Assembly: GCF_029867415.1 (NCBI RefSeq)
Contig: NC_081185.1
Location: 42,106,766 to 42,170,765 of the forward strand
Direction of reading: 5' to 3'
From: Vicia villosa
Taxonomy: Eukaryota; Streptophyta; Magnoliopsida; Fabales; Fabaceae
DNA length: 64,000 nucleotides
A program made the translations under genes and the position numbers. The notes beneath the pieces were generated by a model. That model did no database searches. It had not been told where the DNA came from and was given only the letters and a program-made list of their open reading frames with translations. Positions 3,330 to 42,320 of the stretch are shown here, one piece after another (the stretch's first letter is position 1; each line of letters starts with the position of its first letter).

Positions 3330-4004
3330 TGTGCAGATGTTCCTACAAGACTCATTCAACATGCAGGATATGAAACAAGCATGAAAATTATATCAGAAAT
3401 CTATCAGGTCCAAAAGTTTAGAGAAGTTCAGAGAAGGTCCAAAAGACAGATAAGAAGTTCTGAAGAATTCAGCTTCAGCACATCCAATACAAATACACGG
3501 TGATCGATAAAAACAATAATGATAAAGTCACATGTGAACCTTGGAACCACGTGAAAATAGATACAAGCTCAACTTACAAGTTATTTCTATACTCAAGATA
3601 AGACATGTCGTGAAAGCATCCCCTTTCAGTACACGTGTTATAATGCATTTATTGAAACATTCAAAATGTTCGAGCGGTACTATTAAATTTCCTATAAAAG
3701 AACAAGAGCTTAAAATCAAAAGGTGTGGGATGCATGTGTCATACCCCAATTTTTGACCCTAAGATCCTATATCATTCATATCCTAATCACTAATCAAGAG
3801 CTTCACTTGGAAGTTTTGTTTATGGTATTGCACTCACCTCATCAATAAGAGGGACCGTCAAACACCAATGATTGTTTATCTTGTATGCATATTATACTAA
3901 CCCAAATACCAAAAAAATTGCTTTGTTTCTTTGCAGGCTTTTGTTTTGTAGGTACCAAGCCAAGACATGCAATAAACAAGGCATTTTCCACATTTTGCAC
4001 TGAT

Positions 4005-4988
4005 GAAATCGATTTCCCTCTTGGGTAAATCGATTTCCCTACAGCAATTTTCAACAAAATCACATTCTGGACAGCATGAAATCGATTTCCCTCCTGGGTA
4101 AATCGATTTCCCTAGTGTATTTTGCGCCAAATTCTCTTCTGGAACAGAGTGAAATCGATTTCATTCCTGGGGGAAATCGATTTCCTTAAGGCGAAATTCA
4201 AAAAAAAAATAGAGAGGGAAGCTTGATTTGATTTTGGCACCTATTTTCTTTGACCATTTTTGTCATTTTACCAATTTTCCACCTCACCAAAATAATTCCC
4301 TTCATTAATTCCATTTTAACCTCATTTTACCATTTTTTACCATTTAAATGCCACTTTAATCACCAATTAAACACAAGTTAATTAACCAAGAGCAAATGAC
4401 CAAATTGCCACTACTCTTGCTCTCATCCTATAAATAGAGGCCACTACTCTCTCATTTCTCAAGCTTGGAGAGCCAAAAAATTGCTTGCAAATTCATTTCT
4501 CACCCTTTCCAAAACCTTCACCCAAAGTTCATTTTCATAAGATTAGTGAGATTCACATTGAATCTTGCTAATTTTGAACTAAACCTCCTACATTTCTCTC
4601 TTTTCTTTGGTTGTTCATCTCCAAATTTGAAGGATCTATACTCTTTGTGCTTGCTCTTGAAGCTACTCCAAGACTTTTGTTCAAGAAGTGGTAATTTGCT
4701 AGATCCATGATGTAGATCTTTATTGCTTGTGTTCAATGCATCTTTGATGCTATATTGATGATATATGCTAGTTTTGTGATGGAAATTTCGTGCTCAAGTT
4801 GATGTGTGATCATAAGGTGTTTGTATATTTGTTCAAATGAAGTTTCATGCCTTTAAATGATGTTTTTGCTGAAATTTACACTGATGAAATCGATTTCCTT
4901 AAGGCTGAAATCGATTTCCTGCTGAACGTAACTTGTTTTTTTTGAAAACTGCACTATGGAAATCGATTTCCCCCTGCATGAAATCGAT
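4005..4988. promoter_or_regulatory. Five pairs of palindromic AAATCGATTT motifs
   Basis: The word GAAATCGATTTC or a close variant occurs ten times as five pairs. ATCGAT centres are at about 4010/4031, 4083/4104, 4156/4178, 4891/4912 and 4964/4985. Within each pair the distance is 21 bp (once 22). Three pairs lie upstream of the TATA box and two downstream. The arrangement looks like sites for a dimeric DNA-binding protein, but no factor is assigned. Confidence 0.6.
4429..4436 (+). promoter_or_regulatory. TATA box of the 3.4-kb solo LTR
   Basis: TATAAATA in the context CATCCTATAAATAGAGG, a plant consensus TATA. Transcription of the parent element probably began about 30 bp downstream. Confidence 0.6.
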
Positions 4989-5040
4989 TTCCTGCTGGCA
5001 GAATGTGGTTTTTTGCCTTTTTTATGCTTGTTTTGGCTTC

Positions 5041-5287
5041 CTTCTTCCTCCATTTCATTAATATCATTGGATCTAGGATGTTGATTGGTTTGAAAGGACC
5101 AAATCCATAATATTAGATGAATGATATTAATGATAGTGTGAGTTGATTGTCTTTTGTGAATTTTATTCTTCTTCTTCCATTTCATTAATATCATTGGATC
5201 TAGGATGTTGATAGGTTTGAAAGGACCAAATCCATAATATTAGATGAATGATATTAATGATAGTGTGAGTTGACTTTACTTTATGCA
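5041..5287 (+). repeat. 127-bp tandem duplication in the solo LTR
   Basis: The block beginning with CATTTCATTAATATCATTGG at about 5051 is repeated from about 5178 with few differences, and both copies continue through GATATTAATGATAGTGTGAG. It lies downstream of the TATA box and is non-coding. Confidence 0.75.
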
Positions 5288-6963
5288 TTTTATCTTCTTC
5301 TTCTCCTTTTTTTCTTTTGATCGATGAAAGTCTTAACACTTTGAGAATTCTTATGGATTCTTAGTAAAGACTAGATCATTACCTATTTTCTTTTCGTGCG
5401 GTATTGCTTTCGGAGAATGATCTACATATCATTTCTCTCGCATGCATTAGCACATAAAGTTTTGACCGGCCTCGTTGTAGGGTGATTTCTACATAAATCA
5501 CTTGGCGATCTGCTTAACATAGCGCAATATTTCGTGTCCCGAACAAAAAAGATCAAATATGGAAGAGAATTGTATGCGGTTGATTTAAGACTTATGGAAA
5601 TTTATCGTGTAGTCGCTATGATTTTATCAAGCTTCTGATAAAGTTCCATTGAATTTAAATCCGAGAACATCCTTCACTCACCATCGATCTTTACTACTAA
5701 CTTTGATAACATACTTGACAAGTTTCAAGATGGTTACCTTTAACATCTAACAACTAACTTTAATTTCCGCATTTTATTATATCGCTTTTTATATTTCCCG
5801 CTTTATCGCTTTATGTTATCATTTCATCATATTTACATTCCGCTATTTTTCCTTTGTCCATTTGGACGTTTATATTCCGCTATTTTCTCTTTGTCCATTT
5901 GGACATATGTTTATGTTTCCGCCATTTTCTCTTTGTCCACTTGGACCATACTTTACTTTTATGCTAAAACACTAATAATAACAAAAAATCTAAAAAACAC
6001 CTAAGGCTCTCTTTTGGACTATTGGTTACTATCCCTAGCATTCTGGAGACTCGGACTTATGGACTTAGGACCTCTGGACTCTCATTCTGTTATTACTCTG
6101 TGATTGTTCTGTCTGTCTGGCATTGGATTGTTGTCTGTTTATGTGTGCAGGTATTTCCTTGAAAGCCCTTGATGGTTAATTCCAAGGCATTGAGATAAGG
6201 ATTTTACCCGAAAACAGCCGTTACTCTTCCCGATTTTTGTCAGAATTTTAATGTGCTTAATGCAAAGTGGTGCTAAGACAATAAGTTCATCTGGATCCCC
6301 AAGTGATAATGTTGGTTTAGTATTGATATTCCAAAGGATGGGAAATCTACCTTGACTCATAATGTCAAGTGTTGGCTTCTTCTTCTTCGGTTAGACCGTT
6401 TCTTTCCTTAGCTTTTATTTTACGCAATAAGATAGCCTCTTTATCTCCTCCCATTCTTAAATTTTCAAAATCTTCTCCCTTTTTCAAAAAACCTTCTTAT
6501 GTTTGCAATCATTTTCAAAACGTTTTCTTTAAAATATCTTTTGCCCTTAGTGGCCTTTTCCTCTTTTTCTTCAAAAGTTTAGACACTGTTAATTGTCGAA
6601 ACGAGTGGTTATACCCCACGATTTGGAAATTGATTGATATAATGAGATCTTTTCCGCGTGAGAGAGCTTGTGGCATACTCGTCGATTTTATCTGAGTTGG
6701 AGCCCTTCTTTCATTTGCGAAGCAAAGAACTCATTTGTTCTCATGCTCAAGATCAATGGCTGAGTATTTCTCTCCGACGACGATAAAGTATTTATTCGTT
6801 TTAAAAACGTTTTTCCCTTTAAGCGGAACTACATTAGCTCTGACTTCTCCATTGCACCGAGGAGGTATGTAGGCACAAGGCTTAACGTCTTGCCGAACTT
6901 ATTTTAAAAATAAAACAAACTCTTTTTTTTGGCACACACACACACAGATTTTCAAAAAGGTTC

Positions 6964-7012
6964 CTGTGGAGTACCACAGATATGAGGGGTGCTTTAAACC
7001 TTCCCCTCATAT
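6964..7012 (+). promoter_or_regulatory. Two-hairpin module near the 3' end of the solo LTR
   Basis: Hairpin 1 is CTGTGG-AGTA-CCACAG (6964-6979). Hairpin 2 follows with no spacer: stem ATATGAGGGG (6980-6989), 13-nt loop, stem CCCCTCATAT (7003-7012), ten perfect pairs. The same architecture with different stem sequences occurs at 16461-16509, 22473-22520, 34785-34832 and 46675-46723. Confidence 0.7.
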
Positions 7013-8457
7013 AATCAACACCCGAACCTGAGTTCTCTTTCTTGTTTTAAAAAACAAAACTTTGGGTTTTACGTTCTTTTCCCTTTTCCTTGGAAAAAAT
7101 AAAGCGCGGTGGCGATTTCAAACGAAATATTGATTCGAGTCAATCTTATGGCTTCGATATCAGATTTTCCCCGCTACAGCATGCACATTTGCACCAAGTT
7201 GCACTAAAGAAATCCACAAATACATAAAGAAGGAAAAGAAAGTAAGAGTGCTTTAAGTACTACAACATGTCCAAATAAAGAAAACCAAATAAAGAAAAGA
7301 AGTCTCTGCATGTTATGCAGTATGCTCTAGTGGAGTAATGAAAGTTGGAAATATATCTGAAAGATTTCCACAAATACATGATCAATATTAAAATCCACAC
7401 ATTCGATGGCTAAAGAAACCAAATACACTGAGTTGTTGCTCTACAGTGTAATATGTTTGCTTAAGTTCATTAATATGGTTCTAGCTTGACAAGCTCCATG
7501 ATCAGTATAAAAGGTGAAAATGAAGAACATTACACAAGAAGAAATTTAAGACAAGAGATGCTGGTCTTAATCAGCTTCCAGACAAATGAAGAAGATCAAA
7601 TTGAAGAAGCACCCAATACAAATAGCTAATGCTTTTACTCTGCTTATCAACAAAGAAGTGAAGATCTCGTCCAAAAGCTGAAGATAAGAAGATTACAAGA
7701 TAATTCTTGTAAGAATACATATGACACAAGAGTTGTTACTTATATTGTTTTATCTCTTAAGAATCTTATAATCACTTGTTTAGACACCAGAGGAGGTTAC
7801 TGGTCAGTGTGTTAAAACAATATGTTCTTAGATAACTAGAAAATCTGCTTGTTAAGAAGCATCGTATTGTAACCAAACTTAATGTCGATGATTCCTTAAG
7901 TGACCGAGTAAAGGTCAGAAGCTTGAGATGACAGTGAATAGGAACATTGTGGAAATCTTCTTAGAAGACCAAGTGAAGGTCAGAAGTTCAAAGGGGTCAA
8001 TGAATGTTATATCTGTAAATCAGATCACTGAACAGTTCATTGGAGTAAGTCACGACAGTTGATCGTGCAATTGTAATAAAGATTGGTTATAGTGGATTAA
8101 GCCCTTGAATAAGGAAAAATTACCTTGGCGGGTGGACTGGAGGTAGCCTTTTTGAGAAGGTGAACCAGGATAAAAATGAATGTGTCTTTTACTTTCTGAA
8201 CCTTCATTTAAACCAGAATTTCCATGCAGTTCTTATTCAGAAATCGTGCTTAACAAAGTCCGAAGTTCTGATGAAGAAAAGGAAAAAAATTAATATATGT
8301 CTCGTTGGTTATGCACTATCATGCTTCCGCAATATTATCTAAAGCATCTCCAAAAAGATGAGATATTAGAAGAAAGAAAAGATTTATATACAGGGAAATA
8401 AATATTGAAGAACACAATTCAAACCCCCCCTTTCTTGTGTTTTTCTCCACCTTCAAT

Positions 8458-12057: not shown

Positions 12058-12612
12058 TGTTATACCCCAAAATTTGCCCGCATCTTTTTTAGAGAGAAGG
12101 CAACAGACTTCTGTCTAAAAATTGGAAGTTTCATATAACCTTGGATTTTATTTCATAAATATCCTGATTTTATGAATACTCAGTTTTTTTTAGAATATTT
12201 TTATACGGTATTTTGGTTCGCTGTTAAATTTATTCTTACACAAACACCAAGTACTGTTTATCACTTCACACACGCTGTTTATTTGAGATTTATTTGCAGA
12301 TAAATAGTACTGACACAATTGGTACAGAGTTAAATTTTGCAGGCGCAGAGTCCGGGGATTCAGACTGTACTGGTAACAATTAAATTATTATTAGTTTTCG
12401 TTTCCCAATAATTTTTGTACTATACTATTGTTTTCAAATCTTTTCCTTTCTTTTAAAATCTCTTTCTTTCAAATCAAATCCTAACTTTATTCCATACATC
12501 TTTCTTTTCAAACCCTACCATACACTTTCTTTCAAATCCTACTACCACTCAAATTTTCCTTTTTTGTACGGTATCACTTCATTCCCCAACGTCTCCATCC
12601 TTCTTTTCACTC

Positions 12613-12620
12613 TATAAATA
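12613..12620 (+). promoter_or_regulatory. TATA box of the plus-strand Ogre LTR
   Basis: TATAAATA in the context CACTCTATAAATATCCCTC. The minus-strand Ogre LTR has the same word at the same place relative to the small ORF (26536-26543, reverse strand). Transcripts should start about 30 bp later, so the 55-codon ORF at 12696 would be the first ORF of the mRNA. Confidence 0.65.
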
Positions 12621-12695
12621 TCCCTCATTTTTTCCATAAATTCTCACATCAAATTTCACTCATTTCCCAAATTTCTATCTTCTTCCCTGGCAAAA

Positions 12696-12863
12696 ATGGC
12701 AAAGTGGATGGATACGTTTTTTCTTATGGTCATCACTGTTTTGGTCGTGATCATGTCCTTTTTCTGTCTGCATAGTCCTAAAAAATGCGGACCTGGGATG
12801 CTTACACTCCCGTGCATCTATATGTTGTTATTTATAGCATGGTTTTTTAATCGTCATACTTAA
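12696..12863 (+). CDS. 55-aa membrane microprotein ORF inside the Ogre LTR
   Basis: The ORF starts at ATG 12696 (MAKWMDTFFLMVIT) and ends at TAA 12861-12863. It has two hydrophobic segments: residues about 8-25, then a short CLHSPKKCGPGM loop, then residues about 38-51 (LPCIYMLLFIAWFF), ending NRHT. The minus-strand Ogre LTRs encode a protein of exactly the same length with 38 of 55 identical residues and no indels. Of 39 base differences, about 21 are at third, 13 at first and 5 at second codon positions, as expected under protein-level selection. It lies about 80 bp downstream of the TATA box. No known family is recognised. It could act in the ER or plasma membrane, or be a translated leader ORF. 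Confidence 0.6.
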   Translation: MAKWMDTFFLMVITVLVVIMSFFCLHSPKKCGPGMLTLPCIYMLLFIAWFFNRHT

Positions 12864-15800
12864 AGTTTGTCGTATCTTTCGCTTTCAAATAATGTACCGT
12901 TCATTTTATTTGTCGTACTGTTCATTATATTATGTAATATTTGTACTGTCAGTATTAAATATTGTATTGTCTGTCGTACCGTCGTTTAATTATCAAGATA
13001 GTATTATGTGTGTTTATTGCTAGTTAAATATTTATTTTTTCTATGCATTAAATATTTTTCAAGATTATTATCGGTAATTTCGTTCGCGTACGTTATATTT
13101 TAATTATTTATTATGTTTGTGTTTTTCTAACAACTCAGGTAAATAAATTTTCACCATTAACACACCAAAAAACAAAAAGAAAAAATTAACTTTAACTGCT
13201 AAGTTTTCACTTTAACTGTTACGTTAATGACCGGACAGCCAGTTAACAGGCAAACCCGCTGACAGCACGATTCTCCGTGTTTTGTATCATCATTCAAATC
13301 AATCTTTCACATTTCAAAATTCCAAGATTTTTGTTCTAGAAGTCTTCTGATAATCACATTATCAACAGAGACTCAACACTGCACAAAAATCAGGTACGCT
13401 TAACTGACTCCTACACAAACAGTCCCTAATTAGGGTTTTTGTTTTTTTCAGGAGAACGAGTTTTTTGAAACCTCAAATGGATTTAAAGGATCTCCATATG
13501 TCTCAAAGTACCACATACAATTTTTCAAGCTTCGATTCGCTCGGACGCACAGTCAACAACTCAAACAGTCAACAGACAGTCAAAAATGAAATTTTTTGTC
13601 AACATCCATATTTTGTCAAAAGATTCATCATTTGATCAATGGTTGATCATAATTCATCAAGAAAAGTTCATAAATCAACAAAACCCTAAGTTTCAAAATT
13701 AGGGTTTTCTCCTAAAAAGTCAACTGAACTTTGACTGGCCATAACTCTCTCCTTGTTCATCCAGAAAATTCCAACCAAAGCTTATTTTGAAGGAAATTCA
13801 ATTATATTTCAAATGAAATTTGTCCCATGGTCATTGGATTTACCATTTGGAAAATATGAGCCAAGACATTACAGGTCATTTTCAAAGTCAACAAAAAGTG
13901 GTTTTTTGTCAAAGCCCATAACATCAAGATTACTTCTCCAAATGCAAAAAAGTTTCCAAAGTAGCTTGTAGAGGACATCTTGAGGTTTCTAAAAAGTACA
14001 AGAACTCCTTCATATGATCAAAATTGAGGGAGATATGCCTTGTTGAAGTTGGCTATTTTTTGGGAAAATGCATGAAACTAGCATTGATCGAAATAGTTTT
14101 TTTTCCAAAAGAGGCCAAGCATTCATGATCCAAACATGTTTATAATGATGTTAAAGGGCTCCCATGACCAACATTAGGCCCATGACATTTTTGTTTCTTT
14201 TTTAATTTAATTTTATTACATTTAAAATTAAATTAAAAAAGAAATGGTACAAGACAATTATCCAAAGCTTTTGTCCTTAGCTTGAGTCACCAGGATGGCT
14301 TAACTTCTGCAACATAGAGATGTACAGCAGGCCTAGAGCAAGAGGGTGAAGAAAAATGAAGCCATGGCCAAAGAATTCAAAGCTTTTTATATTAAAAAAT
14401 TCAAAAGTTCAAAAGCAATCAATAATTGTTAACTTAAGTTTGCAGCACTCTTGTTGCTCATAAATAGCTTAGCATACTTCATTAAGGATAGGGAGACAAA
14501 TTCAGAATCAAACACATGCTTATATCACTCTTGTAGAAACTTAAAATTTTCAAAAAAATTCAAATTTTGACTTTTTAGTTTAAGCTAATTTCCAGTCCAA
14601 ATAATTATCTAAACACGATCATCAAACATCCTTGAACCTATCCCAATCATTTACAGCAAGCAAATCACTCAGAACCAAGCACCATAGCTCACGCTTTGTC
14701 CAAACATAAACTAACTCGAATTCAATCATACACTCATGTAATTGTATATTTGTGTTTGGTTAGATGTTCTGATCGTTTCTGGAACTTTAATTTGATTTTA
14801 ATGGAGGTTTGAAGCATATGCCATTTTAGGGTTTATGAAGCTCGAAATGGGACTTTTTGTTTAAGGCAAAATCTGACCAAACTAAGGCCATGGTTGTGAT
14901 TAGTGGATCATTTGCAGTCGATCCATGGTTTCATGTCTTATTTATATAGCTTGTCTTGTGATTTTTAATTTGCAGGAGCTTTAGTGACGGAAAAAACCGT
15001 TGGTAAAGCCTTTACCTATGGTTGCAGGAATTTGAAATGAAGAAGATGAAGACGTGGCGTCCTCTGGTTGGCTGGTTTGCGCGCGCGTGTGTTTTAAGTT
15101 TCAGACCAATCATATGCTTTGCGTTCCACCATCATGTTATGCGCCACATAATCTCAGCCTTCAGATCCATCTGCCAGCTCATCCAACGTGCCTAAACATG
15201 CATCCATATCATAGACCCTACTATCAGCCACACCAGATCATATATTTAATACATTTTCTATTTTATTTGATTTTCTTTGTAAAATTAATTTAAAATAGTT
15301 TTATAAATCAAAAAATTATATTAAAAATATTTTTAGAGTGATAAAATAATATATTTTTTTTTGACATAAAAATATGTTATTTTTCTTCATAATTAAAATA
15401 TTTTGTTTAATTAATTAGAATATATATATTGATCTTTTAATTAATTTTTAACCTATAAAAAAAATCAGAAAAAATATTTTATTTTTATTAAAATAAGTTT
15501 ATATATTATAAACTAATTTTGTACATATTTAGAATATTTTTCTCTTTAAGTTAAATTTATGTGTATAATTATATGTTAATTAGCTTAATAATCTCCAAAA
15601 CAATTCCAAAAAATCAAACAAAAAATTAATTTAATCTAAAATTAATTAACAAACAACTTGGACATATTTTAGACTTAATTTTTTAGGTTTAAATTTTATT
15701 TCTAATTCCTAATCTTTTAATTAAATTAATTATGCATTAATTTTAATTAAAATCAACCATCCAAAAATCCAAAAATATTTTCCCTTTATCTTATTGCAAT

Positions 15801-16460
15801 TTAAATTCATAGATAAGTGTATAGGTAGTCAAAATCATGTAAATAGCGTAGTTTACATTTCTCGCACAATCGATGTAATAGCGTAGATTTACTTTCCGCA
15901 CTTTACATTCCCGCACTTTAATTTCTGTACATATAAAACTACGTGTATGGCAAGAATAATAACTGAAGCGCTAGATCACTAATTTCAAAGACAAAAAATA
16001 TCTGAAACAAAACACAATCACACTTGCACCTCTTAGGGTAATCCCTCTGTTACTCTTTTCAAAATCAATTCTACTGTTTCAAAGGCGATTCAAATAATTT
16101 CTTTCTGTATCCAGTCAAAGAAAATTTTCTAAAAGAAATAAGAAAAGGACCTTACGAACTTAGGGCAGATCTCCTAATTGCTTGCTCAATCAAAACAACA
16201 AATGTTTCACATATCACTGTTTTTCCAAAACAAAAACTTTCAAAAAGACAATACTTTGTATATATACGAACAAGGATCATTACGAAGTTAAAAATCTTTT
16301 TTTCAAACCATCAAAACATTTTTCGAAAGATAAAACACTTTGTATACATCCGCACAAGGATCATTACAACGTTAATTCTTTACAAAAGTATTTAAAACCA
16401 CATACAAGCATTTCAAAGCAAGACAAATGATTCAAACAAGTGAGCTAAGCAATTAAGAGC

Positions 16461-16509
16461 CCATGGATAACCATGGATACAAAGGGGTGCTAACACCTTC
16501 CCTTTGTAT
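16461..16509 (+). promoter_or_regulatory. Two-hairpin module in the plus-strand Ogre LTR
   Basis: Hairpin 1 is CCATGG-ATAA-CCATGG (16461-16476). Hairpin 2 is stem ATACAAAGGG (16477-16486), 13-nt loop, stem CCCTTTGTAT (16500-16509), all ten pairs canonical. It lies about 170 nt upstream of the primer-binding site, within the transcribed part of the LTR. The stem sequence differs from that in the solo LTRs but the pairing is kept. Confidence 0.7.
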
Positions 16510-16595
16510 AACCTACCCCCGAACCCAAAATCTCTTTAAGGTCTTTTTCTTTTTCTTTTATAAACCTTTCCTTAATTGGATAAAATAAAAGTCGG

Positions 16596-16605
16596 TGGCG
16601 ACTCT
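16596..16605 (+). promoter_or_regulatory. Primer-site-like word in U5
   Basis: TGGCGACTCT is identical to the first ten bases of the primer-binding site at 16678 and lies 82 bp upstream of it, inside the LTR. The minus-strand Ogre has the same word extended to 11 bases. It could be a second contact for the primer tRNA. Confidence 0.5.
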
Positions 16606-16677
16606 CCGATTTTCTCAACTAAAAAATAAAAGAAGAGTCAGCTCGTATCCCACGAAAAAAACCGAGGACGACAGAAC

Positions 16678-16694
16678 TGGCGACTCTGCTGGGG
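16678..16694 (+). other. Primer-binding site of the plus-strand Ogre
   Basis: TGGCGACTCTGCTGGGG starts four bases after the LTR end. The same 17 bases occur at the equivalent place in the minus-strand element. Ogre elements are reported to use tRNA-Arg; I could not check the tRNA match here. Confidence 0.75.
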
Positions 16695-17370
16695 ATTTCA
16701 AAAAAACAAATGTTTTCAAAAGGGGTTACCTTAGAGTTTAGATCACTTCGATGTTTTCAATTGCTTGTCTTGTTTGCTCTATTTTTCAAAGGTTTGTTTG
16801 GGTATTGGATTTACTTGTGTGAAAGATTCTAACCCGAATCTTGAGATACCTTAAATATGTGACAATAGACCAAGGAAACTGTACGGCATGTACCGATACG
16901 GTTGATCTGGTAGTCACCGTTAGTGCGACACTTTGGTCTGTACTGATATCCCTTGAAAACGATCAAGGAGTATGTTAGGCTTCCGAAATGTCATTAAGCA
17001 CTAATTTGTCTTAGAACCTTTAGTTGAACTTGACTTGTGGCCTATTAAGTGACTGGCTTTGAAATTGATCAAAGTTGGTTATCCTCGAGGAATATTTTGA
17101 TCAGCCGTCCGAGTGCCATATTGAGATGTTGTCTCCAAGGATCATAGAACCCGAATACCATTTTAAGACAGGTTTAAACCAACTCAACTTCAGTGGGGAG
17201 GGTATCACCTATGAACCTCATGCAAGCCTTTAAACCTAAGGCTATTGTTTGATTTGTTTCTGTTTTCCACATGTTTGACATCATGACATCATAAGCATTA
17301 TAAACATATCATTTTCTCACTAATCATTTCAAGGATCGAAGAGTTTACCTTTGTTCTGTTGTTGCAGGTA
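16695..17370 (+). other. 5' untranslated region of the plus-strand Ogre
   Basis: Non-coding leader between the primer-binding site and ORF1, alignable with 33910-34559 of the minus-strand element. It ends in TTGTTGCAGGTA just before the ORF1 ATG, which resembles a splice acceptor. No tandem repeats. Confidence 0.6.
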
Positions 17371-22269: not shown

Positions 22270-22373
22270 TGTGGACCTCCGATTTTTTTAATCCCGGGCC
22301 ATACCTCTGTTCTGTAGAGATACGTGAACTGATCTTTTTTATCGCTTAATGCTTTCGCATTTTTGAAAATTCA

Positions 22374-22384
22374 CAGAGTCGCCA
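22374..22384 (-). promoter_or_regulatory. Primer-site-like word in U5 (3' LTR copy)
   Basis: On the minus strand this reads TGGCGACTCTG, the first 11 bases of the primer-binding site at 34560-34576. The right LTR has the same word at 34686-34696, the plus-strand Ogre at 16596-16605. Confidence 0.5.
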
Positions 22385-22472
22385 CCGACCTTTTATTTTA
22401 TCCAATTAAGGAAAGGTTTATAAAAGAAACAGAAAAAAGACCTTTAAGAAATTCTGGGTAAGGGGGTAGGTT

Positions 22473-22520
22473 ATACAAAGGGAAGGTGTTAGCACGCTTT
22501 GTATCCATGGTTATCCATGG
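22473..22520 (-). promoter_or_regulatory. Two-hairpin module, minus-strand Ogre 3' LTR
   Basis: Same layout as at 34785-34832, but one G of the stem has changed to C (CGCTTTGTAT at 22495-22504 on the plus strand), which removes one G-C pair. This is one of the few differences between the two LTRs. Confidence 0.65.
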
Positions 22521-25500
22521 GCTCTTAAGTTTGCTTAGCTCACTTGTTTTTCGACGACTTTTCAATTGCTCTGAAATTGCTCATATGTGGTTTCAAATAC
22601 CTTTGTAATTTGAATTTTGTAATGATCCGTGTGTGGATGTATACAAAATGCTTGTTTATCTTTCGAAAGATGTTTTGAAAAGAACGTTAACTTTGTAATA
22701 ATCCGTGTTTGGATGTATAAAAAGTATTGTCTTTTTGGAAAGTTTTGTTTTGAAAAACAACAGTGTATGAGAATTTTGTTTGTTTTGATTTGAGCAAGCA
22801 AACTAGGAGGTCTACCCTGAGTTGTAAGGTCTTTATCCTATTTCCTTTAAAAATCTATCCTTTCACCGGATATAAACGCAAGGTTCGATTTTGTACTCAA
22901 AACAGTGGAATTTTGACTTTTTGATTTTGAAAAGAATGAGAAAGGATTTACCTTAAGAGGTGCAAGTGTGATTGTGTTTGTATTCAGATATTTTATCTTT
23001 GAAGTTAGTGATCTAACGGTTCAATTTTATCTTTGACATACACGCAGTTTATATTTGCTGGAAATTAAAATGCGGAAATGTAAAGTGCGGAAAGTAAATC
23101 TACGCTATTACATCGATTGTGCAGGAAATGTAAACTAGCCTATTTACATGAATTTGACATCCTATACATTTATCTAGGAATTTAAATTGCAAGAAAAATA
23201 AAAGGCATGTTTTTGGATTTTTTATGATTTGATTTTAATTATAATTAATGCATGATTAATTAAATTAAAATGAAGAAAAAGATGAAAATAGATTTAAACC
23301 TAGAAATTAAGTTTAAAATATGTACAAAATATTTGTCAATTAATTTTAAACAAAACTAATTTTTTTGGAATTGATTTGAAATTGATTTCAGTTAATTAAA
23401 ACATAATTATGCAAATAATTATATAAATAATTAAAACTTAAAGAGAAAATTATTCAAAATATGTACAAAATTAGTTTATAATATATAAACAATATTTTAT
23501 ATAAAGAACAATTTTTTTATGATTTTTTTGATTGGTTAGAATAATTAAAAAGCAAATATATGAATATATACTAATTAATTATGCAAAATATTGAAATTTT
23601 GAAGAAAAATAAAATATTTTTATTTCAGAAAATAATATATTATTTTAGAAGTCTAAAAATATTTTTGTGTATTTTTTGGATTTTTAAAACTATTTTTAAT
23701 TAATTTTGTAAAGAAATTAAAATAAAATAGAAAAAAAAAATAGAAAATAAAAGGATACTGATCCTGTGTGAAAATCAATGAAGTCCATAGCATAGGGCTG
23801 CTTGTCTGATGCGTTAGATTGGCTTTGAGATTGATCCAAGGGCTCAGATCATGGGGGAGCATGATAGCCATGTGGGAATCAGTGCATATGATTAGTCAGA
23901 TATTCAAAGTCCACGCTGGGACCCACGCTGGCTGACCAACGAATGAGGAGAAGGGAATCTGCCACGCGTGCAGATAGAATTGTCAACTTTTGACTGACGA
24001 ACCACACTTGGACGCGTGGTCGTCTTCAACCTCCGTCTGCCTTATTTTTTAAACAAATAGCGGGGGTTTTAAACCTCCTCTATTTGTACAGTAAAACGTT
24101 ACTTTTGGTAGCTTCCCACACCTGCAAAAATAAACGTTAGAGATAAAAACAAGTGACCCAGATTGACTTAAAATCACCTCCTGAATACGATGGTGGTGTT
24201 AGTTTTGCTATTTGAGCGCTGTAGCTATGGATTCGAAGAGGTTGAAGCTTAAGCATGCAAGAACACTTGTTAATGGCATAGAGCTATCCTCACGTGGAAA
24301 CTCACATGTTAGAGCCCAGATCTACCCTATGAGACCTCATGAACTCATTAGAATGATTAGTTTATATTGAGGTTAATTAAATATAGGAAAATGAGAATTG
24401 ATCACATATGAACATGAAGAACACTATGAACGTGCTACGACTCTCATGGGACCACACAAAGAGTTTATTCTTACTCTATATGATCTTAGAAGATGATTGA
24501 AAGTGTTTGTTTGTATTAATATTGATTGGAATATGGAAATTGAAAATTACAAAGTTATGGAATTTTGAGAGAATTTTGGTATGTTTCTATGCTATGCTTG
24601 CTATATTTTCGTGGGTGTCTTGGCTCTCTTTTGTTTGTGAAATATGCAGCTTCATTTATAGGCCTTGAGGTGCTTAAAATTGAAGCTAAAAGCAATAATT
24701 GCTTTTGTTGAATTTTGACTTTCAAGCTTGGAACTCAAGCAACCTTGGCTTGCTCTTCACACTTCTTTCCTTAGCCTTTCCTTGCAGCTTCCTTGCTGCA
24801 TAATTAAGCCACATGTGTAAGCTTTAGCTTAGAAAATAAGCTATGATTTATCCTTCTTTTTTTTCCTTTTTAATTTAATCTTAAATGATAAAATTAAATC
24901 AAGAAATGGAGAAAAATGATGTGGGCTTTGTCTTGGTCGTGGGAGGCCCATATCATCATGGAAATGATGTTTGAATGCTGAAAACTTGGCCCCATTTGGA
25001 AAAAATACATTTTTGAGCAATGTTGATTTCATGTATTTTCCCAAAATTTAGCCAACTTCAACAAGGTGTAAATCCCTCAATTTTTGTCATATGAAGGAGA
25101 TCTTGCACTTTTTGGAAACCTCAAAGAGTCCTCTAACCAATGCCTTTGGTCTCATGTCAAAATGATTTTTGAAGCTCCTTGTGTGTCCTTTTGAAAAAAG
25201 TGTCTTTTTGTTGACTTTGAAAATGACCTGTAATGTCTTTGGTCATATTTTTCAAATGGTGAATCCAATGACCATGGGATCAATGGCATTTGAAAGATAA
25301 TTGAATTTCCTTCAAGATGAGCTTTGGTTTGAATTTTTTGGATGAAGGATGAGAGAGTTATGATCAGTCAAAGTTGAGTTGACTTTTCAGGCAAAAACCC
25401 TAATTTTGAATCTTAGAGTTTTGTTGATTTTTGATCTTTCCGTGATGAATTATGATCATCCAATGATCAAATGATGAATCCTTTGACAAAATATGGACTT

Positions 25501-26273
25501 TGACAAAAAATTTCATTTTTGACTGTCTGTTGACTTTTTTGGTCAAACGGGTCGTCTGTTGACTGTTTGAGCTGCTGACGGTGCGTCTGAGTGAATTGAA
25601 GTTTGAAAATTTGTATGATGGTACTTTGAGATATATGGATGTGTATGAAATCCATTTGAGCTCTCAAAAACTTGTTGCTCCTGTAAAAACAAGAAAAACC
25701 CTGATTAGGGACTGTTTGTGTAGGAGACAGTTAAGCGTACCTGATTTTTGTGCAGTGTTGAGTCTCTGCTAATCGTGTGATATTCAGAAGACTTCTAGAA
25801 CAAAAATCTTGGAATTTTGAATTGTGAAAGATTGATTTGATTGATGGTACAAAACACTGAGAATTGTATTGCCAGCAGTTTGGCTGTCAACTGACTGTTC
25901 AGGTATTGACGTAGCAGTTAGAGTGAAAAATCAACAGTCAAAGTTAATTTTCTTTTTTTTTGTTGTTTTTGCTTTTGTTTTTTGTGAAAAATGAAAGTTT
26001 AATTACATGACTTGTTAAAAAAACATAGACATAATAAATAACTAATATTTACGGTATGCGGGCAAAATTACCGATAATAACCCTGAAAATCATTTAATGC
26101 ACAGAAATAGGAATATTTGACTGGCAGAAAACACACAAAATATTATCTTAGTAATTAAGCAATATTATGACAAATAGTACAACATTTAATACTGACAGTA
26201 CAAATATCACATACTATATTGAACAGTACGACGAATAAACGGTACATTTAAGAAATAAGAAATACGGCAAATT

Positions 26274-26441
26274 TTAAGAATGACGGTTAATGACCCATGC
26301 TATGAACAATAACATGTAGATGATTGGGAGTGCAACCATTGCAGGTCCACACTCTTCAGGACTATGCAGGCAGAAGAAAGTCATGATCACCGTAGCAATG
26401 GTGATGACTGTAAGAAACAGTGTCTCTATCCACTTTGCCAT
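26274..26441 (-). CDS. 55-aa membrane microprotein ORF (3' LTR copy)
   Basis: Start codon at 26441, stop at 26274-26276. The product begins MAKWIETLFLTVITIATVIM and ends IYMLLFIAWVINRHS, with two hydrophobic segments around a CLHSPEECGPAM loop. It has the same length as the ORF at 12696-12863, with 38 of 55 residues identical. The two charged residues of the loop change from KK to EE, while the C-G-P and N-R-H motifs are kept. It lies about 95 bp downstream of a TATAAATA box. No known family recognised. Confidence 0.6.
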   Translation of the reverse strand: MAKWIETLFLTVITIATVIMTFFCLHSPEECGPAMVALPIIYMLLFIAWVINRHS

Positions 26442-26535
26442 TCTTGTCCGGGAAGAAGAGAAAATAGATATGAGGTAGGAATTTGAAAGATGAGTTGGAA
26501 TTTGATGTGAGATTTTATGGAAGAAAATGAGAGGT

Positions 26536-26543
26536 ATTTATAG
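26536..26543 (-). promoter_or_regulatory. TATA box of the minus-strand Ogre LTR (3' LTR copy)
   Basis: TATAAATA on the minus strand, followed by CCTCTCATTTTCTTCC. It has the same position relative to the microprotein ORF as in the plus-strand Ogre. Confidence 0.6.
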
Positions 26544-27054
26544 AATGGAAAGAAGGATAGAGACGTTGGGGAATGATGTGATTCCGTACAAAAGGAAAAT
26601 TTGAATGAAAGTAAGATTTGAAAGAAAGTGGATGATAGTGTTGGGAAAAAGAGAGATTTGATTTTTGAAAAAGAGATTTGAAAAGATTTTTGAAAATAAT
26701 GGAATATAGTACAAAAACTAGTGGGAAACAAAAGATAATAATAATCTACTTGTTACCAGTACAGTCTGAGTTTCCTGATTCTGCGCCTGCAAAAAGATTT
26801 AACTCTGTACCAATTGTGTCAGTACTATTTATCTGTAAATAAATAAATAGCATGTGTGAAGTAATAAACAGTATTTGGCGTTTGCGTAAGAATAAATTCA
26901 ACTGCAGGCCAATTTACTGTATAAGAAAAATTCTAAAAACTAAGTGTTTCATATGTTATGATATTTGTTGAAATAATCCATAATTATATGAGACTTTTAA
27001 TTTTCAGATTGGAGTTTTCTTGAAAAATATGTGGGCAAATTTTGGGGTATAACA

Positions 27055-33909: not shown

Positions 33910-34559
33910 TACCTGCAAAAACAAAGGTAAACTCTTTGATCCTTGAAGTGTTTGGTGCAAAAATGATATGCTTATGATGCAAACATGTGGCACACAAAAA
34001 CAAATCAAACAATAGCCTTAGGTTTAAAGGCTTGCATGGAGCTGATAGGTGATACCCTCCCCACTGAAGTTGAGTTGGTTAAAACCTGTCCTAGAATAGT
34101 ATTCGGGTTCTATGATCCTTGGAAGTAACATCTCAATACGGCGCTCGAGCGGCCGATCAAAATATTCCTCGAGGATAACTAACTTCGATCAATTTCAAAG
34201 CTAGCCACTTAATAGGCCACAAGTCAAGTTCAACTAAAAAGGTTCTAAGACAAATTAGTGTTTAATGACATTTCGGAAGCCTAATATACTCCTTGATCGT
34301 TTTCAAGGGACATCAGTATAAACCAAAGTATCGCACTAACGATGACTACCAGATCAACCGTATCGGTACATGCCGTACAGTTTCCTTGGTCTATTGTCAT
34401 ATACTTAAGGTATCTCGAGATTCGGGTTAGAATCTTTCACACAAGCAAAATACCCCAACAAACCTTTGAAAAATAGAGCAATCAAGTCAAACAATTGAAA
34501 ACATCGACCTATTCTCTTAAGGTAACCCCTTTTGAAAACATTTTGTTTTTGAAAGTATT
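33910..34559 (-). other. 5' untranslated region of the minus-strand Ogre
   Basis: Non-coding leader alignable to 16695-17370 of the plus-strand element. It contains no ORF of note. Confidence 0.6.
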
Positions 34560-34576
34560 CCCCAGCAGAGTCGCCA
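34560..34576 (-). other. Primer-binding site of the minus-strand Ogre
   Basis: TGGCGACTCTGCTGGGG on the minus strand, four bases after the LTR end. It is identical to the site of the plus-strand Ogre. Confidence 0.75.
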
Positions 34577-34685
34577 GTTCTGTGGACCTCCGATTTTTTT
34601 AATCCCGGGCCATACCTCTGTTCTGTAGAGATACGTGAACTGACTCTTTTTTATCGCTTAATGCTTTCGCATTTTTGAAAATTCA

Positions 34686-34696
34686 CAGAGTCGCCA
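34686..34696 (-). promoter_or_regulatory. Primer-site-like word in U5 (5' LTR copy)
   Basis: TGGCGACTCTG on the minus strand, 110 bp upstream of the PBS in element orientation. It repeats the first 11 bases of the primer-binding site. Confidence 0.5.
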
Positions 34697-34784
34697 CCGA
34701 CCTTTTATTTTATCCAATTAAGTAAAGGTTTATAAAAGAAACAGAAAAAAGACCTTTAAGAAATTCTGGGTAAGGGGGTAGGTT

Positions 34785-34832
34785 ATACAAAGGGAAGGTG
34801 TTAGCACCCTTTGTATCCATGGTTATCCATGG
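34785..34832 (-). promoter_or_regulatory. Two-hairpin module, minus-strand Ogre 5' LTR
   Basis: On the minus strand: CCATGG-ATAA-CCATGG, then stem ATACAAAGGG, 12-nt loop, stem CCCTTTGTAT, with no spacer between the hairpins. All pairs are intact in this copy. Confidence 0.7.
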
Positions 34833-37800
34833 GCTCTTAAGTTTGCTTAGCTCACTTGTTTTTCGATGACTTTTCAATTGCTCTGAAATTGCTCATATGT
34901 GGTTTCAAATACCTTTGTAATTTGAATTTTGTAATGATCCGTGTGTGGATGTATACAAAATGCTTGTTTATCTTTCGAAAGATGTTTTGAAAAGAACGTT
35001 AACTTTGTAATAATCCGTGTTTGGATGTATACAAAGTATTTTCTTTTTGGAAAGTTTTGTTTTGAAAAACAACAGTGTATGAGAATTTTGTTTGTTTTGA
35101 TTTGAGCAAGCAAACTAGGAGGTCTACCCTGAGTTGTAAGGTCTTTATCCTATTTCCTTTAAAAATCTATCCTTTCACCGGATATAAACGCAAGGTTCGA
35201 TTTTGTACTCAAAACAGTGGAATTTTGACTTTTTGATTTTGAAAAGAATGAGAAAGGATTTACCTTAAGAGGTGCAAGTGTGATTGTGTTTGTATTCAGA
35301 TATTTTATCTTTGAAGTTAGTGATCTAACGGTTCAATTTTATCTTTGACATACACGCAGTTTATATTTGCTGGAAATTAAAATGCGGAAATGTAAAGTGC
35401 GGAAAGTAAATCTACGCTATTACATCGATTGTGCAGGAAATGTAAACTAGCCTATTTACATGAATTTGACATCCTATACATTTATCTAGGAATTTAAATT
35501 GCAAGAAAAATAAAAGGCATGTTTTTGGATTTTTTATGATTTGATTTTAATTATAATTAATGCATGATTAATTAAATTAAAATGAAGAAAAAGATGAAAA
35601 TAGATTTAAACCTAGAAATTAAGTTTAAAATATGTACAAAATATTTGTCAATTAATTTTAAACAAAACTAATTTTTTTGGAATTTTTTGGAATTGATTTG
35701 AAATTGATTTCAGTTAATTAAAACATAATTATGCAAATAATTATATAAATAATTAAAACTTAAAGAGAAAATTATTCAAAATATGTACAAAATTAGTTTA
35801 TAATATATAAACAATATTTTATATAAAGAACAATTTTTTTATGATTTTTTTGATTGGTTAGAATAATTAAAAAGCAAATATATGAATATATACTAATTAA
35901 TTATGCAAAATATTGAAATTTTGAAGAAAAATAAAATATTTTTATTTCAGAAAATAATATATTATTTTAGAAGTCTAAAAATATTTTTGTGTATTTTTTG
36001 GATTTTTAAAACTATTTTTAATTAATTTTGTAAAGAAATTAAAATAAAATAGAAAATAAAATAGAAAATAAAAGGATACTGATCCTGTGTGAAAATCAAT
36101 GAAGTCCATAGCATAGGGCTGCTTGTCTGATGCGTTAGATTGGCTTTGAGATTGATCCAAGGGCTCAGATCATGGGGGAGCATGATAGCCATGTGGGAAT
36201 CAGTGCATATGATTAGTCAGATATTCAAAGTCCACGCTGGGACCCACGCTGGCTGACCAACGAATGAGGAGAAGGGAATCTGCCACGCGTGCAGATAGAA
36301 TTGTCAACTTTTGACTGACGAACCACGCTTGGACGCGTGGTCGTCTTCAACCTCCGTCTGCCTTATTTTTTAAACAAATAGCGGGGGTTTTAAACCTCCT
36401 CTATTTGTACAGTAAAACGTTACTTTTGGTAGCTTCCCACACCTGCAAAAATAAACGTTAGAGATAAAAACAAGTGACCCAGATTGACTTAAAATCACCT
36501 CCTGAATACGATGGTGGTGTTAGTTTTGCTATTTGAGCGTTGTAGCTATGGATTCGAAGAGGTTGAAGCTTAAGCATGCAAGAACACTTGTTAATGGCAT
36601 AGAGCTATCCTCACGTGGAAACTCACATGTTAGAGCCCAGATCTACCCTATGAGACCTCATGAACTCATTAGAATGATTAGTTTATATTGAGGTTAATTA
36701 AATATAGGAAAATGAGAATTGATCACATATGAACATGAAGAACACTATGAACGTGCTACGACTCTCATGGGACCACACAAAGAGTTTATTCTTACTCTAT
36801 ATGATCTTAGAAGATGATTGAAAGTGTTTGTTTGTATTAATATTGATTGGAATATGGAAATTGAAAATTACAAAGTTATGGAATTTTGAGAGAATTTTGG
36901 TATGTTTCTATGCTATGCTTGCTATATTTTCGTGGGTGTCTTGGCTCTCTTTTGTTTGTGAAATATGCAGCTTCATTTATAGGCCTTGAGGTGCTTAAAA
37001 TTGAAGCTAAAAGCAATAATTGCTTTTGTTGAATTTTGACTTTCAAGCTTGGAACTCAAGCAACCTTGGCTTGCTCTTCACACTTCTTTCCTTAGCCTTT
37101 CCTTGCAGCTTCCTTGCTGCATAATTAAGCCACATGTGTAAGCTTTAGCTTAGAAAATAAGCTATGATTTATCCTTCTTTTTTTTCCTTTTTAATTTAAT
37201 CTTAAATGATAAAATTAAATCAAAAAATGGAGAAAAATGATGTGGGCTTTGTCTTGGTCGTGGGAGGCCCATATCATCATGGAAATGATGTTTGAATGCT
37301 GAAAACTTGGCCCCATTTGGAAAAAATACATTTTTGAGCAATGTTGATTTCATGTATTTTCCCAAAATTTAGCCAACTTCAACAAGGTGTAAATCCCTCA
37401 ATTTTTGTCATATGAAGGAGATCTTGCACTTTTTGGAAACCTCAAAGAGTCCTCTAACCAATGCCTTTGGTCTCATGTCAAAATGATTTTTGAAGCTCCT
37501 TGTGTGTCCTTTTGAAATAAGTGTCTTTTTGTTGACTTTGAAAATGACCTGTAATGTCTTTGGTCATATTTTTCAAATGGTGAATCCAATGACCATGCGA
37601 TCAATGGAATTTGAAAGATAATTGAATTTCCTTCAAGATGAGCTTTGGTTTGAATTTTTTGGATGAAGGATGAGAGAGTTATGATCAGTCAAAGTTGAGT
37701 TGACTTTTCAGGCAAAAACCCTAATTTTGAATCTTAGAGTTTTGTTGATTTTTGATCTTTCCTTGATGAATTATGATCATCCAATGATCAAATGATGAAT

Positions 37801-38594
37801 CCTTTGACAAAATATGGACTTTGACAAAAAATTTCATTTTTGACTGTCTGTTGACTTTTTTGGTCAAACGGGTCGTCTGTTGACTGTTTGAGCTGCTGAC
37901 GGTGCGTCTGAGTGAATTGAAGTTTGAAAATTTGTATGATGGTACTTTGAGATATATGGATGTGTATGAAATCCATTTGAGCTCTCAAAAACTTGTTGCT
38001 CCTGTAAAAACAAGAAAAACCCTGATTAGGGACTGTTTGTGTAGGAGACAGTTAAGCGTACCTGATTTTTGTGCAGTGTTGAGTCTCTGCTAATCGCGTG
38101 ATATTCAGAAGACTTCTAGAACAAAAATCTTGGAATTTTGAATTGTGAAAGATTGATTTGATTGATGGTACAAAACACTGAGAATTGTATTGCCAGCAGT
38201 TTGGCTGTCAACTGACTGTTCAGGTATTGACGTAGCAGTTAGAGTGAAAAATCAACAGTCAAAGTTAATTTTCTTTTTTTTTGTTGTTTTTGCTTTTGTT
38301 TTTTGTGAAAAATGAAAGTTTATTTACATGACTTGTTAAAAAAACATAGACATAATAAATAACTAATATTTACGGTATGCGGGCAAAATTACCGATAATA
38401 ACCCTGAAAATCATTTAATGCACAGAAATAGGAATATTTGACTGGCAGAAAACACACAAAATATTATCTTAGTAATTAAGCAATATTATGACAAATAGTA
38501 CAACATTTAATACTGACAGTACAAATATCACATACTATATTGAACAGTACGACGAATAAACGGTACATTTAAGAAATAAGAAATACGGCAAATT

Positions 38595-38762
38595 TTAAGA
38601 ATGACGGTTAATGACCCATGCTATGAACAATAACATGTAGATGATTGGGAGTGCAACCATTGCAGGTCCACACTCTTCAGGACTATGCAGGCAGAAGAAA
38701 GTCATGATCACCGTAGCAATGGTGATGACTGTAAGAAACAGTGTCTCTATCCACTTTGCCAT
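38595..38762 (-). CDS. 55-aa membrane microprotein ORF (5' LTR copy)
   Basis: Start codon at 38762, stop at 38595-38597. It encodes the same protein as 26274-26441 (MAKWIETLFLTVITIATVIM to IAWVINRHS). As the copy in the 5' LTR, it would be transcribed from that LTR's TATA box and be the first ORF of the element's mRNA, ahead of ORF1 and gag. Confidence 0.6.
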   Translation of the reverse strand: MAKWIETLFLTVITIATVIMTFFCLHSPEECGPAMVALPIIYMLLFIAWVINRHS

Positions 38763-39375
38763 TCTTGTCCGGGAAGAAGAGAAAATAGATATGAGGTAGG
38801 AATTTGAAAGATGAGTTGGAATTTGATGTGAGATTTTATGGAAGAAAATGAGAGGTATTTATAGAATGGAAAGAAGGATAGAGACGTTGGGGAATGATGT
38901 GATTCCGTACAAAAGGAAAATTTGAATGAAAGTAAGATTTGAAAGAAAGTGGATGATAGTGTTGGGAAAAAGAGAGATTTGATTTTTGAAAAAGAGATTT
39001 GAAAAGATTTTTGAAAATAATGGAATATAGTACAAAAACTAGTGGGAAACAAAAGATAATAATAATCTACTTGTTACCAGTACAGTCTGAGTTTCCTGAT
39101 TCTGCGCCTGCAAAAAGATTTAACTCTGTACCAATTGTGTCAGTACTATTTATCTGTAAATAAATAAATAGCATGTGTGAAGTAATAAACAGTATTTGGC
39201 GTTTGCGTAAGAATAAATTCAACTGCAGGCCAATTTACTGTATAAGAAAAATTCTAAAAACTAAGTGTTTCATATGTTAGGATATTTGTTGAAATAATCC
39301 ATAATTATATGAGACTTTTAATTTTCAGATTGGAGTTTTCTTGAAAAATATGTGGGCAAATTTTGGGGTATAACA

Positions 39376-40778: not shown

Positions 40779-42320
40779 TGTCATACCCTAATTTTTGACC
40801 CCCCTGAGATGACATATCTTCAGGATTTTTCATCAGGTCAAGACAAGTACCCAGAGCAGTCATTTCTCCATCTGGTACCTAATCGAGGATGCTCAAAGAC
40901 AAGAAAGCTCAGGCAAAGGATCAATCAATACAAAGACTAGTCTCTAATACAATCATGGGGCTCAAAAACTTCACTTTTCTCATCTATGATTGATTAGACA
41001 TCCAGTCATATGAGTACAGGTTTACTCAGGTCACCAGACTAGGGTTTTGAGCCTATCAAGGACTAAAATCAGGGATCACTTTTGGGAAACCCTAAAAAGC
41101 CCCAGGGAACCATTCAAAGACATCAATCATCTTCAAATAACTCATATGACAAGATCTACTGGACATCACACTTCAATTCAAAGTCTACAGTCATTATTTT
41201 CACATGGTCGACAAATTAGGGTTTTGACCTAATTCACCAAGATAGTTGACTTCTGATCAGGGCATGAATCCAAAACTCAAGACATGATTCAAGAGTCTCT
41301 ACTACCTCAATATAATCCATTTATATCATCCATTTGGGGAGAAGATCTTATTTCTACACAAAAGCCCAAAAATTCACTTTGTCAGGAAAAAGTCAACTGT
41401 GAAGGATCATCATTGACTTTTAAGGTTTTTGGTCAAAAAATGACTTTCAAAGATCAATATCATCAATATATGGATGTCAAAGTCATTTGGCCAAAGAAAT
41501 TCAAAGAAATTCATCAAAGAGCGAAAAGTCGGGAATTAGGGTTTTTGAGGGCATGGTGAGATCTCAAAATTTCACCTACACAACTCAAAAAACTTCCAAC
41601 ATGAAAGTTGTAGATCTTGCCAAATAAAACAACATCTTACAAGGGAACTTTTTTCAAAAGATCAACCATTTATGAAGTTTTGGAAATTTTGAAGTTTAGG
41701 TCATAAACACTTAGAAATTTTTCTAAGTGTTTTAACCTAGTTTTCTTCCAACTTTGGCCTCATTTTTCACAAATTTCCCAAAGGATTCTGAAGAAGACAT
41801 AAACTAATGATTTAAAGTAGATGTTTAGGGCTTTCCAAATTGTGTTCAACCTTCTCAAAATTCAATTTGAGCTAAGAGTTATGCTTGTTCAAAGTTGGCC
41901 TCATGAAGTGAAATTATAGGTCATGCATCATTTTGGAACTTTGAAGTTTTGTGCACATGACCTCAAATACAGATGCTACATGACCCATAATACATCTGCA
42001 AACATGCCATGCATTCATTTTCACCATGCCATGATAATTGAAGAAGATTCCTAAAACAAGAACATGTGATTATGTAATGATTACATTTGAGAATTTATGG
42101 CAAATTGATGAATCACCCAAGGAATCTTCTCATCAACCAATTAGAGCTCACTTTGCATCTGAATTGTCCCCTAAGATCAGATAGAATCAATGGATAGGGG
42201 AGGTGGCTCGAAAATGCAATGATCACACTTGGATATTCTTTGAAATTTCTTCATGGCTAAGAAACCAAACTTGCTTCACTAAGCAAGCTCACTCTCTCAC
42301 TCAGTACTGAGACATTTGCC

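Follow-up and report, generated by a model that had tools for sequence, protein, structure and literature searches.

The window, i.e., the whole 64,000-nt stretch of Vicia villosa DNA analysed here, contains five copies of a two-hairpin module which, as a preliminary description of this DNA had claimed for four different LTRs, fall in four families of long terminal repeat (LTR), A to D (Table 1). Re-reading of the window places all five copies at the coordinates and on the strands first given for them, and also bears out the proposed geometry, in which hairpin 1 (6-4-6) is abutted without a spacer by a hairpin 2 with a 10-bp stem and a 12-13-nt loop. The 10 bp of hairpin 2 are arranged round a conserved GGGTG...CTTCCC core, and loop and linker letters of the module are conserved as well. 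Of the AACC-ACC-C-GAAC-like tail reported 3' of the hairpins, only part is kept; TTAC or GTAC often replaces the GAAC portion, and types L078 and L080 have a different tail. A single pair is broken, by a G to C change, in the copy at 22473. Four of the five window copies fold far better than dinucleotide-shuffled versions of themselves (z -3.6 to -4.8), while the family D copy does not (z -1.3; 20/200 dinucleotide shuffles fold equally well).

Table 1. Positions of LTRs, signals and candidate RNA structures in the window.
Feature	Position	Strand	Remarks
LTR A	12058..16673	+	LTR delimitation; TGTTATACCCC...CGACA; PBS next
LTR B	34581..39375	-	LTR delimitation; PBS next
LTR B, second copy	22270..27054	-	99.4% identical to first
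Solo LTR C	3737..7178	+	TSD GCATG at 3732-3736 and 7179-7183
Solo LTR D	40779..46977	+	TSD ATCTG at 40774-40778 and 46978-46982
First TATA box, LTR A	12612..12624	+	motif; predicted start about 30 nt downstream
First TATA box, LTR B	38850..38864	-	motif; second copy 26529-26543
TATA box, LTR C	4427..4440	+	motif
First TATA box, LTR D	42319..42332	+	motif
Two-hairpin module, family A	16461..16509	+	hairpin 1 16461-16476, hairpin 2 16477-16509; covariance model 81.3 bits
Two-hairpin module, family B, LTR adjoining PBS	34785..34832	-	87.4 bits
Two-hairpin module, family B, element's other LTR	22473..22520	-	one broken pair; 78.7 bits
Two-hairpin module, family C	6964..7012	+	80.7 bits
Two-hairpin module, family D	46675..46723	+	two adjacent G-U pairs; 73.9 bits
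Upstream pseudoknot box, family C	6825..6900	+	P1 CTACA/TGTAG; GCTC-GAAC, one mismatch; hairpins P2, P3
Upstream pseudoknot box, family D	46469..46541	+	box pattern and covariation
A-rich poly(A)-like signal and PBS-like repeat, LTR A	16579..16604	+	motif; GATAAAATAAAA, PBS-like CGGTGGCGACTC
Poly(A)-like signal and PBS-like repeat, LTR B	34688..34715	-	second copy 22376-22403
Poly(A)-like signal and PBS-like repeat, LTR C	7092..7115	+	motif
A-rich poly(A)-like signals, LTR D	46827..46878	+	motif; two candidates
Primer-binding site (PBS), element A	16678..16695	+	PBS match
Primer-binding site (PBS), element B	34559..34576	-	PBS match

The elements carrying the module are suitably described as Ogre-type, with reverse transcriptase, RNase H, RVT_3 and integrase encoded internally and a DUF7745 ORF lying 3' of the element A PBS. 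A domain search of the window ORFs returned RVT_1, RT_RNaseH, RVT_3, rve, and Integrase_H2C2, these domains coming from the internal regions of element B and of the element entered by LTR D, as C and D are themselves solo LTRs; we infer that RVT_3 is the extra aRH-type RNase H of Ogre/Tat. The DUF7745 ORF (17449-18423; E 1.1e-110) is the extra ORF that Ogre carries between its 5' LTR and gag, and the PBS TGGCGACTCTGCTGGGGA was found in elements A and B. Both solo LTRs have TG...CA termini and perfect 5-bp target duplications, with LTR D sitting inside a reverse transcriptase ORF. LTRs A and B are about 77% identical; C and D share only short matches with A/B, with no further alignment, and the best local LTR match covers the module in the A-C, C-D, B-C, and B-D comparisons, the module match being tied with another local match for A-D. 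As to the independence of the copies, which the preliminary description had left as a possible weakness, the copies at 22473 and 34785 are the LTRs of one element and A is their relative, so that the window holds three independent lineages. Of separate note, a stretch of about 167 nt 5' of the LTR start is common to both B LTRs (39375-39542 and 27054-27221), and the PBS-side B LTR is thus preceded by a 3' internal end, as would follow from LTR-LTR recombination or from a shared LTR.

Across the five window copies, 98.8% of the 80 pair cells can pair and 7/16 pairs display two-sided changes, in keeping with the compensated pairing originally noted. Neither the observed pairing nor the two-sided count was attained in any of 500 letter shuffles, and sliding the stem partner abolished pairing. 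When the changed positions were randomised, the probability of keeping 16/16 pairs was 0.0003 for A-C, 0.0005 for A-D, and 0.0012 for C-D. The two-sided changes in the window are real, albeit from a small sample; in an alignment extended to 14 copies, 9/16 pairs covary.

To what extent the module is shared was followed in the window's own assembly, a single genome of 2,034,964,285 bases (2.03 Gb) in 1888 contigs. The hairpin-2 core GGGTGCTAAYACCTTCCC has 25,466 exact matches there, against 0 for the reversed control pattern, and 30 loci chosen by core match contain the module with many different stems, including one (L049) with most of hairpin 1 deleted. Hairpin 2 of the L026 type contains a 2x2 U-U mismatch. 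A covariance model built on the 14 copies was applied to the window and to 200 kb of genome, sampled as evenly spaced stretches of three contigs; it recovered the five window copies and gave seven strong matches in the sample, roughly one per 29 kb, with two weak matches (16.4 and 12.8 bits) left uncounted. Of the 21,771 exact PBS matches that the assembly contains, 100 were listed, and the first 20 of these served as loci chosen independently of the module; all lie on one contig, some have identical modules, and 420 bases upstream of each were examined. Hairpin 2 is present in 20/20, its core about 120-230 nt 5' of the PBS, and the complete module scores at least 69 bits in 15/20. The remaining five score 23-25 bits and have no standard hairpin 1, with hairpin-2 stem letters that are quite different (e.g., GGATTTAGGG/CCCTAAATCC); three of these five divergent hairpin-2 loci (L080, L089, and L094) fold no better than shuffles, the best fold of L089 being a different one.

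Beyond this genome, the core pattern gave one match in the viral_contigs collection and a looser form gave 24 in genome_contigs. These 25 matches form between 1 and 6 of the 7 outer hairpin-2 pairs (median 4; one match with 6) and are taken as chance occurrences, as none (0/25) makes all 7, compared to 26 of 33 distinct modules from the V. villosa assembly. Searches of viral_contigs with the Ogre ORFs revealed no relative.

The wider covariation analysis that had been suggested for the module came out in its favour within this one genome. For 33 distinct modules (rows drawn from 62 model matches, in an alignment fitted to the covariance model), 96.6% of 502 pair cells pair and 11/16 pairs show two-sided changes, amounting to 84 two-sided cells as opposed to 22.3 +/- 4.6 in shuffled alignments, with slid structures pairing at no more than 54%. 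Shared ancestry was taken into account through two tree-aware nulls, in which either (i) the changes on each branch were reassigned to random columns, or (ii) the changes of each column were kept and redistributed over the branches, the trees being derived from the short motif itself. With 28 of the 33 rows (those under 60 letters dropped) and 200 runs per null, neither null ever matched the module: pairing was 0.962 against maxima of 0.743 and 0.819, and two-sided cells numbered 65 against maxima of 35 and 49 (0/200 runs each). Parsimony assigns about 25 double changes, 14 one-sided changes, and 14 breaking changes to the stems. Individually, 2/16 module pairs exceed the family-wise 5% threshold, as does one non-structural column pair, in a sample of lineages that are few, related, and from one genome.

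Upstream of the module, we found a second candidate structure, a pseudoknot box, which is an addition to the features listed in the preliminary description. The box pattern matches twice in the window and never in 100 shuffles, with 44 matches in all, 27 of them distinct. In order, the box consists of one half of P1 (CTACG, pairing with CGTAG), a pseudoknot strand (GCTC or ACTC), TGA, hairpin P2, the other half of P1, GCA, hairpin P3, and a GAGC or GAGT that pairs with the GCTC/ACTC strand; since these strands cross, the box would form an H-type pseudoknot. Written in HDV-like naming (P1-P2-P3-P1'-P4-P2'), this order is present in 26 of the 27 distinct boxes, the exception (L041) being rearranged after P3 and omitted from the parse. 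Among 19 distinct parsed boxes, those with ACTC have GAGT in 5/5 cases and those with GCTC have GAGC in 11/14, though both this coupling and the parsed pseudoknot counts are partly circular, as the parse pre-set the letters of the second pseudoknot strand.

A structure-free MAFFT alignment of 17 of the 27 distinct boxes avoids this circularity. There, P1, the pseudoknot, and P3 (P2 omitted) are 95.7% paired, versus 24-45% for slid structures, with 43 two-sided cells versus 12.9 in shuffles; for the pseudoknot helix on its own, pairing is 92.8%, and 2/5 pairs show two-sided changes. Against the same two tree-aware nulls (17 distinct rows obtained from 26 parsed boxes, excluding the central parts of P2 and P3), box pairing was 0.954 versus maxima of 0.783 and 0.808 (0/200 runs under both nulls), two-sided cells were 60 versus maxima of 22 and 29, and 3/19 pairs exceeded the family-wise 5% threshold in the single-pair test. 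The inferred events comprise 18 double, 6 one-sided, and 6 breaking changes.

Where at least 260 nt of upstream sequence was at hand, a box was found within 400 nt upstream of 29/45 modules, starting about 115-205 nt 5' of the module in those sampled families that are not of the A/B type. The 16/45 boxless modules are those of the A/B type and relatives, and a search of the A and B LTRs with one relaxed pattern for a diverged version of the box found none. All 44 of 44 boxes co-occur with a module, a count biased by the 30 loci having been selected through the module core. In viral_contigs, the box pattern occurs in 101 stretches, none of which (0/101) contains the core or a match to the fuller form of the pattern. 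As a separate observation, locus L026 (1207-1410) and its relatives have a tandem pair of boxes about 120 nt apart, 5' of one module.

The strands of an HDV ribozyme follow the order P1a, P2a, hairpin, P1b, hairpin, P2b, and its catalytic core involves P1.1 pairs and a joining strand whose longer loop holds the catalytic C. The order of the box strands (P1, pseudoknot, P2, P1', P3, pseudoknot') is the same, which raises the question of whether the box is a self-cleaving RNA that cuts the transcript. The details fit poorly: conserved letters lie 5' of P1, a conserved linker of 4-5 nt precedes P2, and only 2 nt join to the second pseudoknot strand, none of which agrees with the HDV core. Rfam gave no match at gathering score in the window, and the eight loci submitted yielded only mir-190 at E 0.59. 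Membership among HDV-like ribozymes was thus rejected, on the 2-nt joining strand, the lack of a common CC in the P2 loops, and the lack of an Rfam match, and cleavage in general is the least probable of the readings we have weighed; we know of no cleavage by the Ogre box. A hammerhead retrozyme was likewise rejected, with no Rfam hammerhead in the window or the eight loci. HDV-like ribozymes occur in non-LTR retrotransposons (PMC4035085). The box resembles the HDV fold in helix strand order, while differing from it in core letters, joining strands, and the lack of an Rfam match.

Paired changes could in principle arise with no selection on RNA, with the palindromes serving as DNA sites for proteins or being renewed by template switching. 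Hairpins such as CCATGG...CCATGG are indeed DNA palindromes, and template switching in quasi-palindromes is known to produce paired changes. Yet G·T combinations outnumber A·C ones by 24 to 6 in the module and by 17 to 2 in 19 distinct boxes, an asymmetry not expected from the symmetry of DNA; as this means that pairing is better in the sense than in the antisense strand, it is what would be expected of RNA. The strands of the pseudoknot, moreover, covary across about 50-65 nt with other helices in between, and the conservation extends to loop and linker letters. A DNA-level origin is therefore very improbable, and the module is almost certainly a structure selected in sense RNA. The earlier proposal that selection maintains a structure in the leader of the genomic RNA is thereby supported, through the tree-aware nulls, the G·U excess, and the placement of TATA boxes, all within one genome.

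As to this placement, motif matches to TATA and ATAAA flank the module. A CTATAAATA box matches 512-1542 nt from the LTR start in all four LTR families, with extra TATA-like words closer to the module in LTRs A, B, and D, all of them 5' of it. These positions give a predicted leader (R plus U5) of 2.7-4.6 kb containing the module, and transcription from the first TATA box would put the domain within this 5' leader, a location that we consider very probable. On the other side, the hairpin-2 core lies 93.5 +/- 9.6 nt 5' of an ATAAA-type signal in 14 of the 17 distinct modules that have a PBS, as judged by a pattern written post hoc from the sequences, with a D-derived form included and close relatives among the 17; no recognised ATAAA signal occurs in the remaining 3/17. 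The core-to-PBS distance is 171.6 +/- 43.6 nt (17/17), and the smaller spread of the former value indicates that the module keeps a steadier position with respect to the poly(A)-like signal than to the PBS. Directly 3' of this signal, the LTR contains a second occurrence of the opening 9-12 nt of the PBS (CGGTGGCGACTC), as at 16592-16604, 34688-34699 (reverse strand), and 7107-7118 in the window; GTGGCGA follows the signal within one mismatch in 45/59 modules, 3 of the 62 being too short to score. We take rice Retrosat2 to be a Tat-type element. In the portion of its description available, an R of 2 kb was assigned from motifs (PMC3485330).

Taken together, we propose, with a probability of roughly 0.62, that Ogre-type LTR retrotransposons carry the module as a cis-acting RNA domain, which forms on sense RNA close to where a very long R ends. 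That paired letters keep changing together suggests that the shape of the RNA matters to the element. Poly(A) would be added near the ATAAA signal, such that the domain would also directly precede the tail of the genomic RNA; with R ending just past ATAAA, the domain would be present twice, once 5' of the PBS and once 5' of the tail. As the foremost among several candidate roles, though only tentatively, we suggest that the domain marks the end of R, contributing both to the choice of poly(A) site and to folding and pausing at the R/U5 border for minus-strand transfer. The domain would help to select the 3' poly(A) site, with the identical 5' copy being skipped. Minus-strand DNA primed at the PBS would copy U5 and then the domain first, where folding may pause copying at the R/U5 border, and the DNA could thus transfer to the 3' copy after the last few hundred bases of R instead of after all of R.

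Retroviral packaging signals are usually located in the leader before the PBS, and the module, about 120-315 nt 5' of the PBS in the predicted leader, occupies a matching position. A packaging or dimerisation signal, with Gag binding a leader domain and genomes pairing via loop-loop contacts, is the second-ranked role, if an unlikely one. The hairpin-2 loops of C and D contain palindromes (TTTAAA and TGTTTAAACA, respectively), as would suit dimerisation, whereas the A/B loop GTGCTAACAC is non-palindromic; a kissing loop is thus not conserved, and a kissing-loop dimer as a conserved feature of the module was rejected. Packaging would also leave the distance to the ATAAA signal with no reason to vary less than that to the PBS.

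Distinctly less likely is a nuclear export or stability element akin to the pseudoknotted transport element (MTE) of MusD in the mouse. Since Ogre RNA is partly spliced, the unspliced genomic RNA would need a structure for export; according to the available part of one source, Medicago Ogre elements have functional introns and the MusD MTE contains pseudoknot and kissing-loop motifs (PMC12786077), and the Ogre box is itself an H-type pseudoknot. A signal in the LTR would, however, be on spliced and unspliced RNA equally, the A/B types are without the box, and the fairly constant spacing from the poly(A)-like signal would be left unexplained. Less probable again is a translation element, i.e., one for ribosome landing or for shunting past the leader. 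Scanning ribosomes would hardly cross a leader of kilobases, as predicted here, but the module is not tied to any start codon, with U5, the PBS, and further leader separating it from the first long ORF (in element A, opening stop-to-stop at 17449, about 940 nt 3' of the module).

Were the role at the end of R the correct one, the domain would bear on how elements whose R is very long skip the poly(A) site of the 5' LTR, use that of the 3' LTR, and achieve early minus-strand transfer. The fold would thus open a way to study transcript ending and transfer in such an element, and its occurrence at 20/20 PBS-chosen loci provides a handle for structure probing and for covariance-model detection of solo LTRs. 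That the pseudoknot and abutting hairpins together constitute an undescribed class of retroelement RNA machinery, one that solves the problem of a multi-kilobase R, is a further step which we regard as speculative and rather doubtful.

In HIV-1, the TAR and poly(A) hairpins abut each other within R, 5' of the PBS and close to the poly(A) signal, and are present at either end of the RNA. The Ogre module resembles this arrangement in its two abutting hairpins and in its predicted placement in R at both ends. It differs in the predicted kilobase length of the Ogre R, in that the module precedes the signal without containing it, and in the pseudoknot domain that often accompanies the module; to our knowledge, the two have no sequence relation. 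In the part of the report available, the MusD MTE is likewise a pseudoknot-bearing cis RNA of an LTR retrotransposon, though of an animal element and with an export role reported (PMC12786077). Dimerisation and packaging signals are described for the RNA of BARE, a plant LTR retrotransposon of the Ty1/copia type as opposed to Ogre, with no two-hairpin module in the accessible text (PMC3735527). Profile HMMs of LTRs have revealed conserved poly(A) and GT-rich elements and possible stem-loops in R, in a paper whose main text contains neither "Athila" nor "Ogre" and whose accessible passages describe no such module (PMC3601003).

The hairpin-2 core strings are absent from open-access PMC full texts, and the accessible portions of PMC6911290, PMC4659654, PMC5407846, PMC6317226, PMC3485330, PMC12786077, and PMC4035085 describe neither module nor box. 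Within open-access PMC, as far as its texts were available, both thus appear previously undescribed, in agreement with the preliminary description, which knew of no account of the module; one may exist in the Ogre papers of 2003-2007.

Several further features of the window were recorded. A 47-bp tandem repeat array (27335-28527), whose inner copies are 94-98% alike, lies near the start of LTR B, and many repeats of palindromic AAATCGATTT words are found inside solo LTR C (4000-4190 and 4880-4990). A run of 100 N at 31667-31766, in the pol region of element B, is probably an assembly gap. Lastly, the stretches 7852-8455 and 48104-48751 are 88% alike and are probably Ty1/copia LTRs, the first ending near TTGGTATCAGAGCATGG, which presumably resembles a tRNA-Met primer site.
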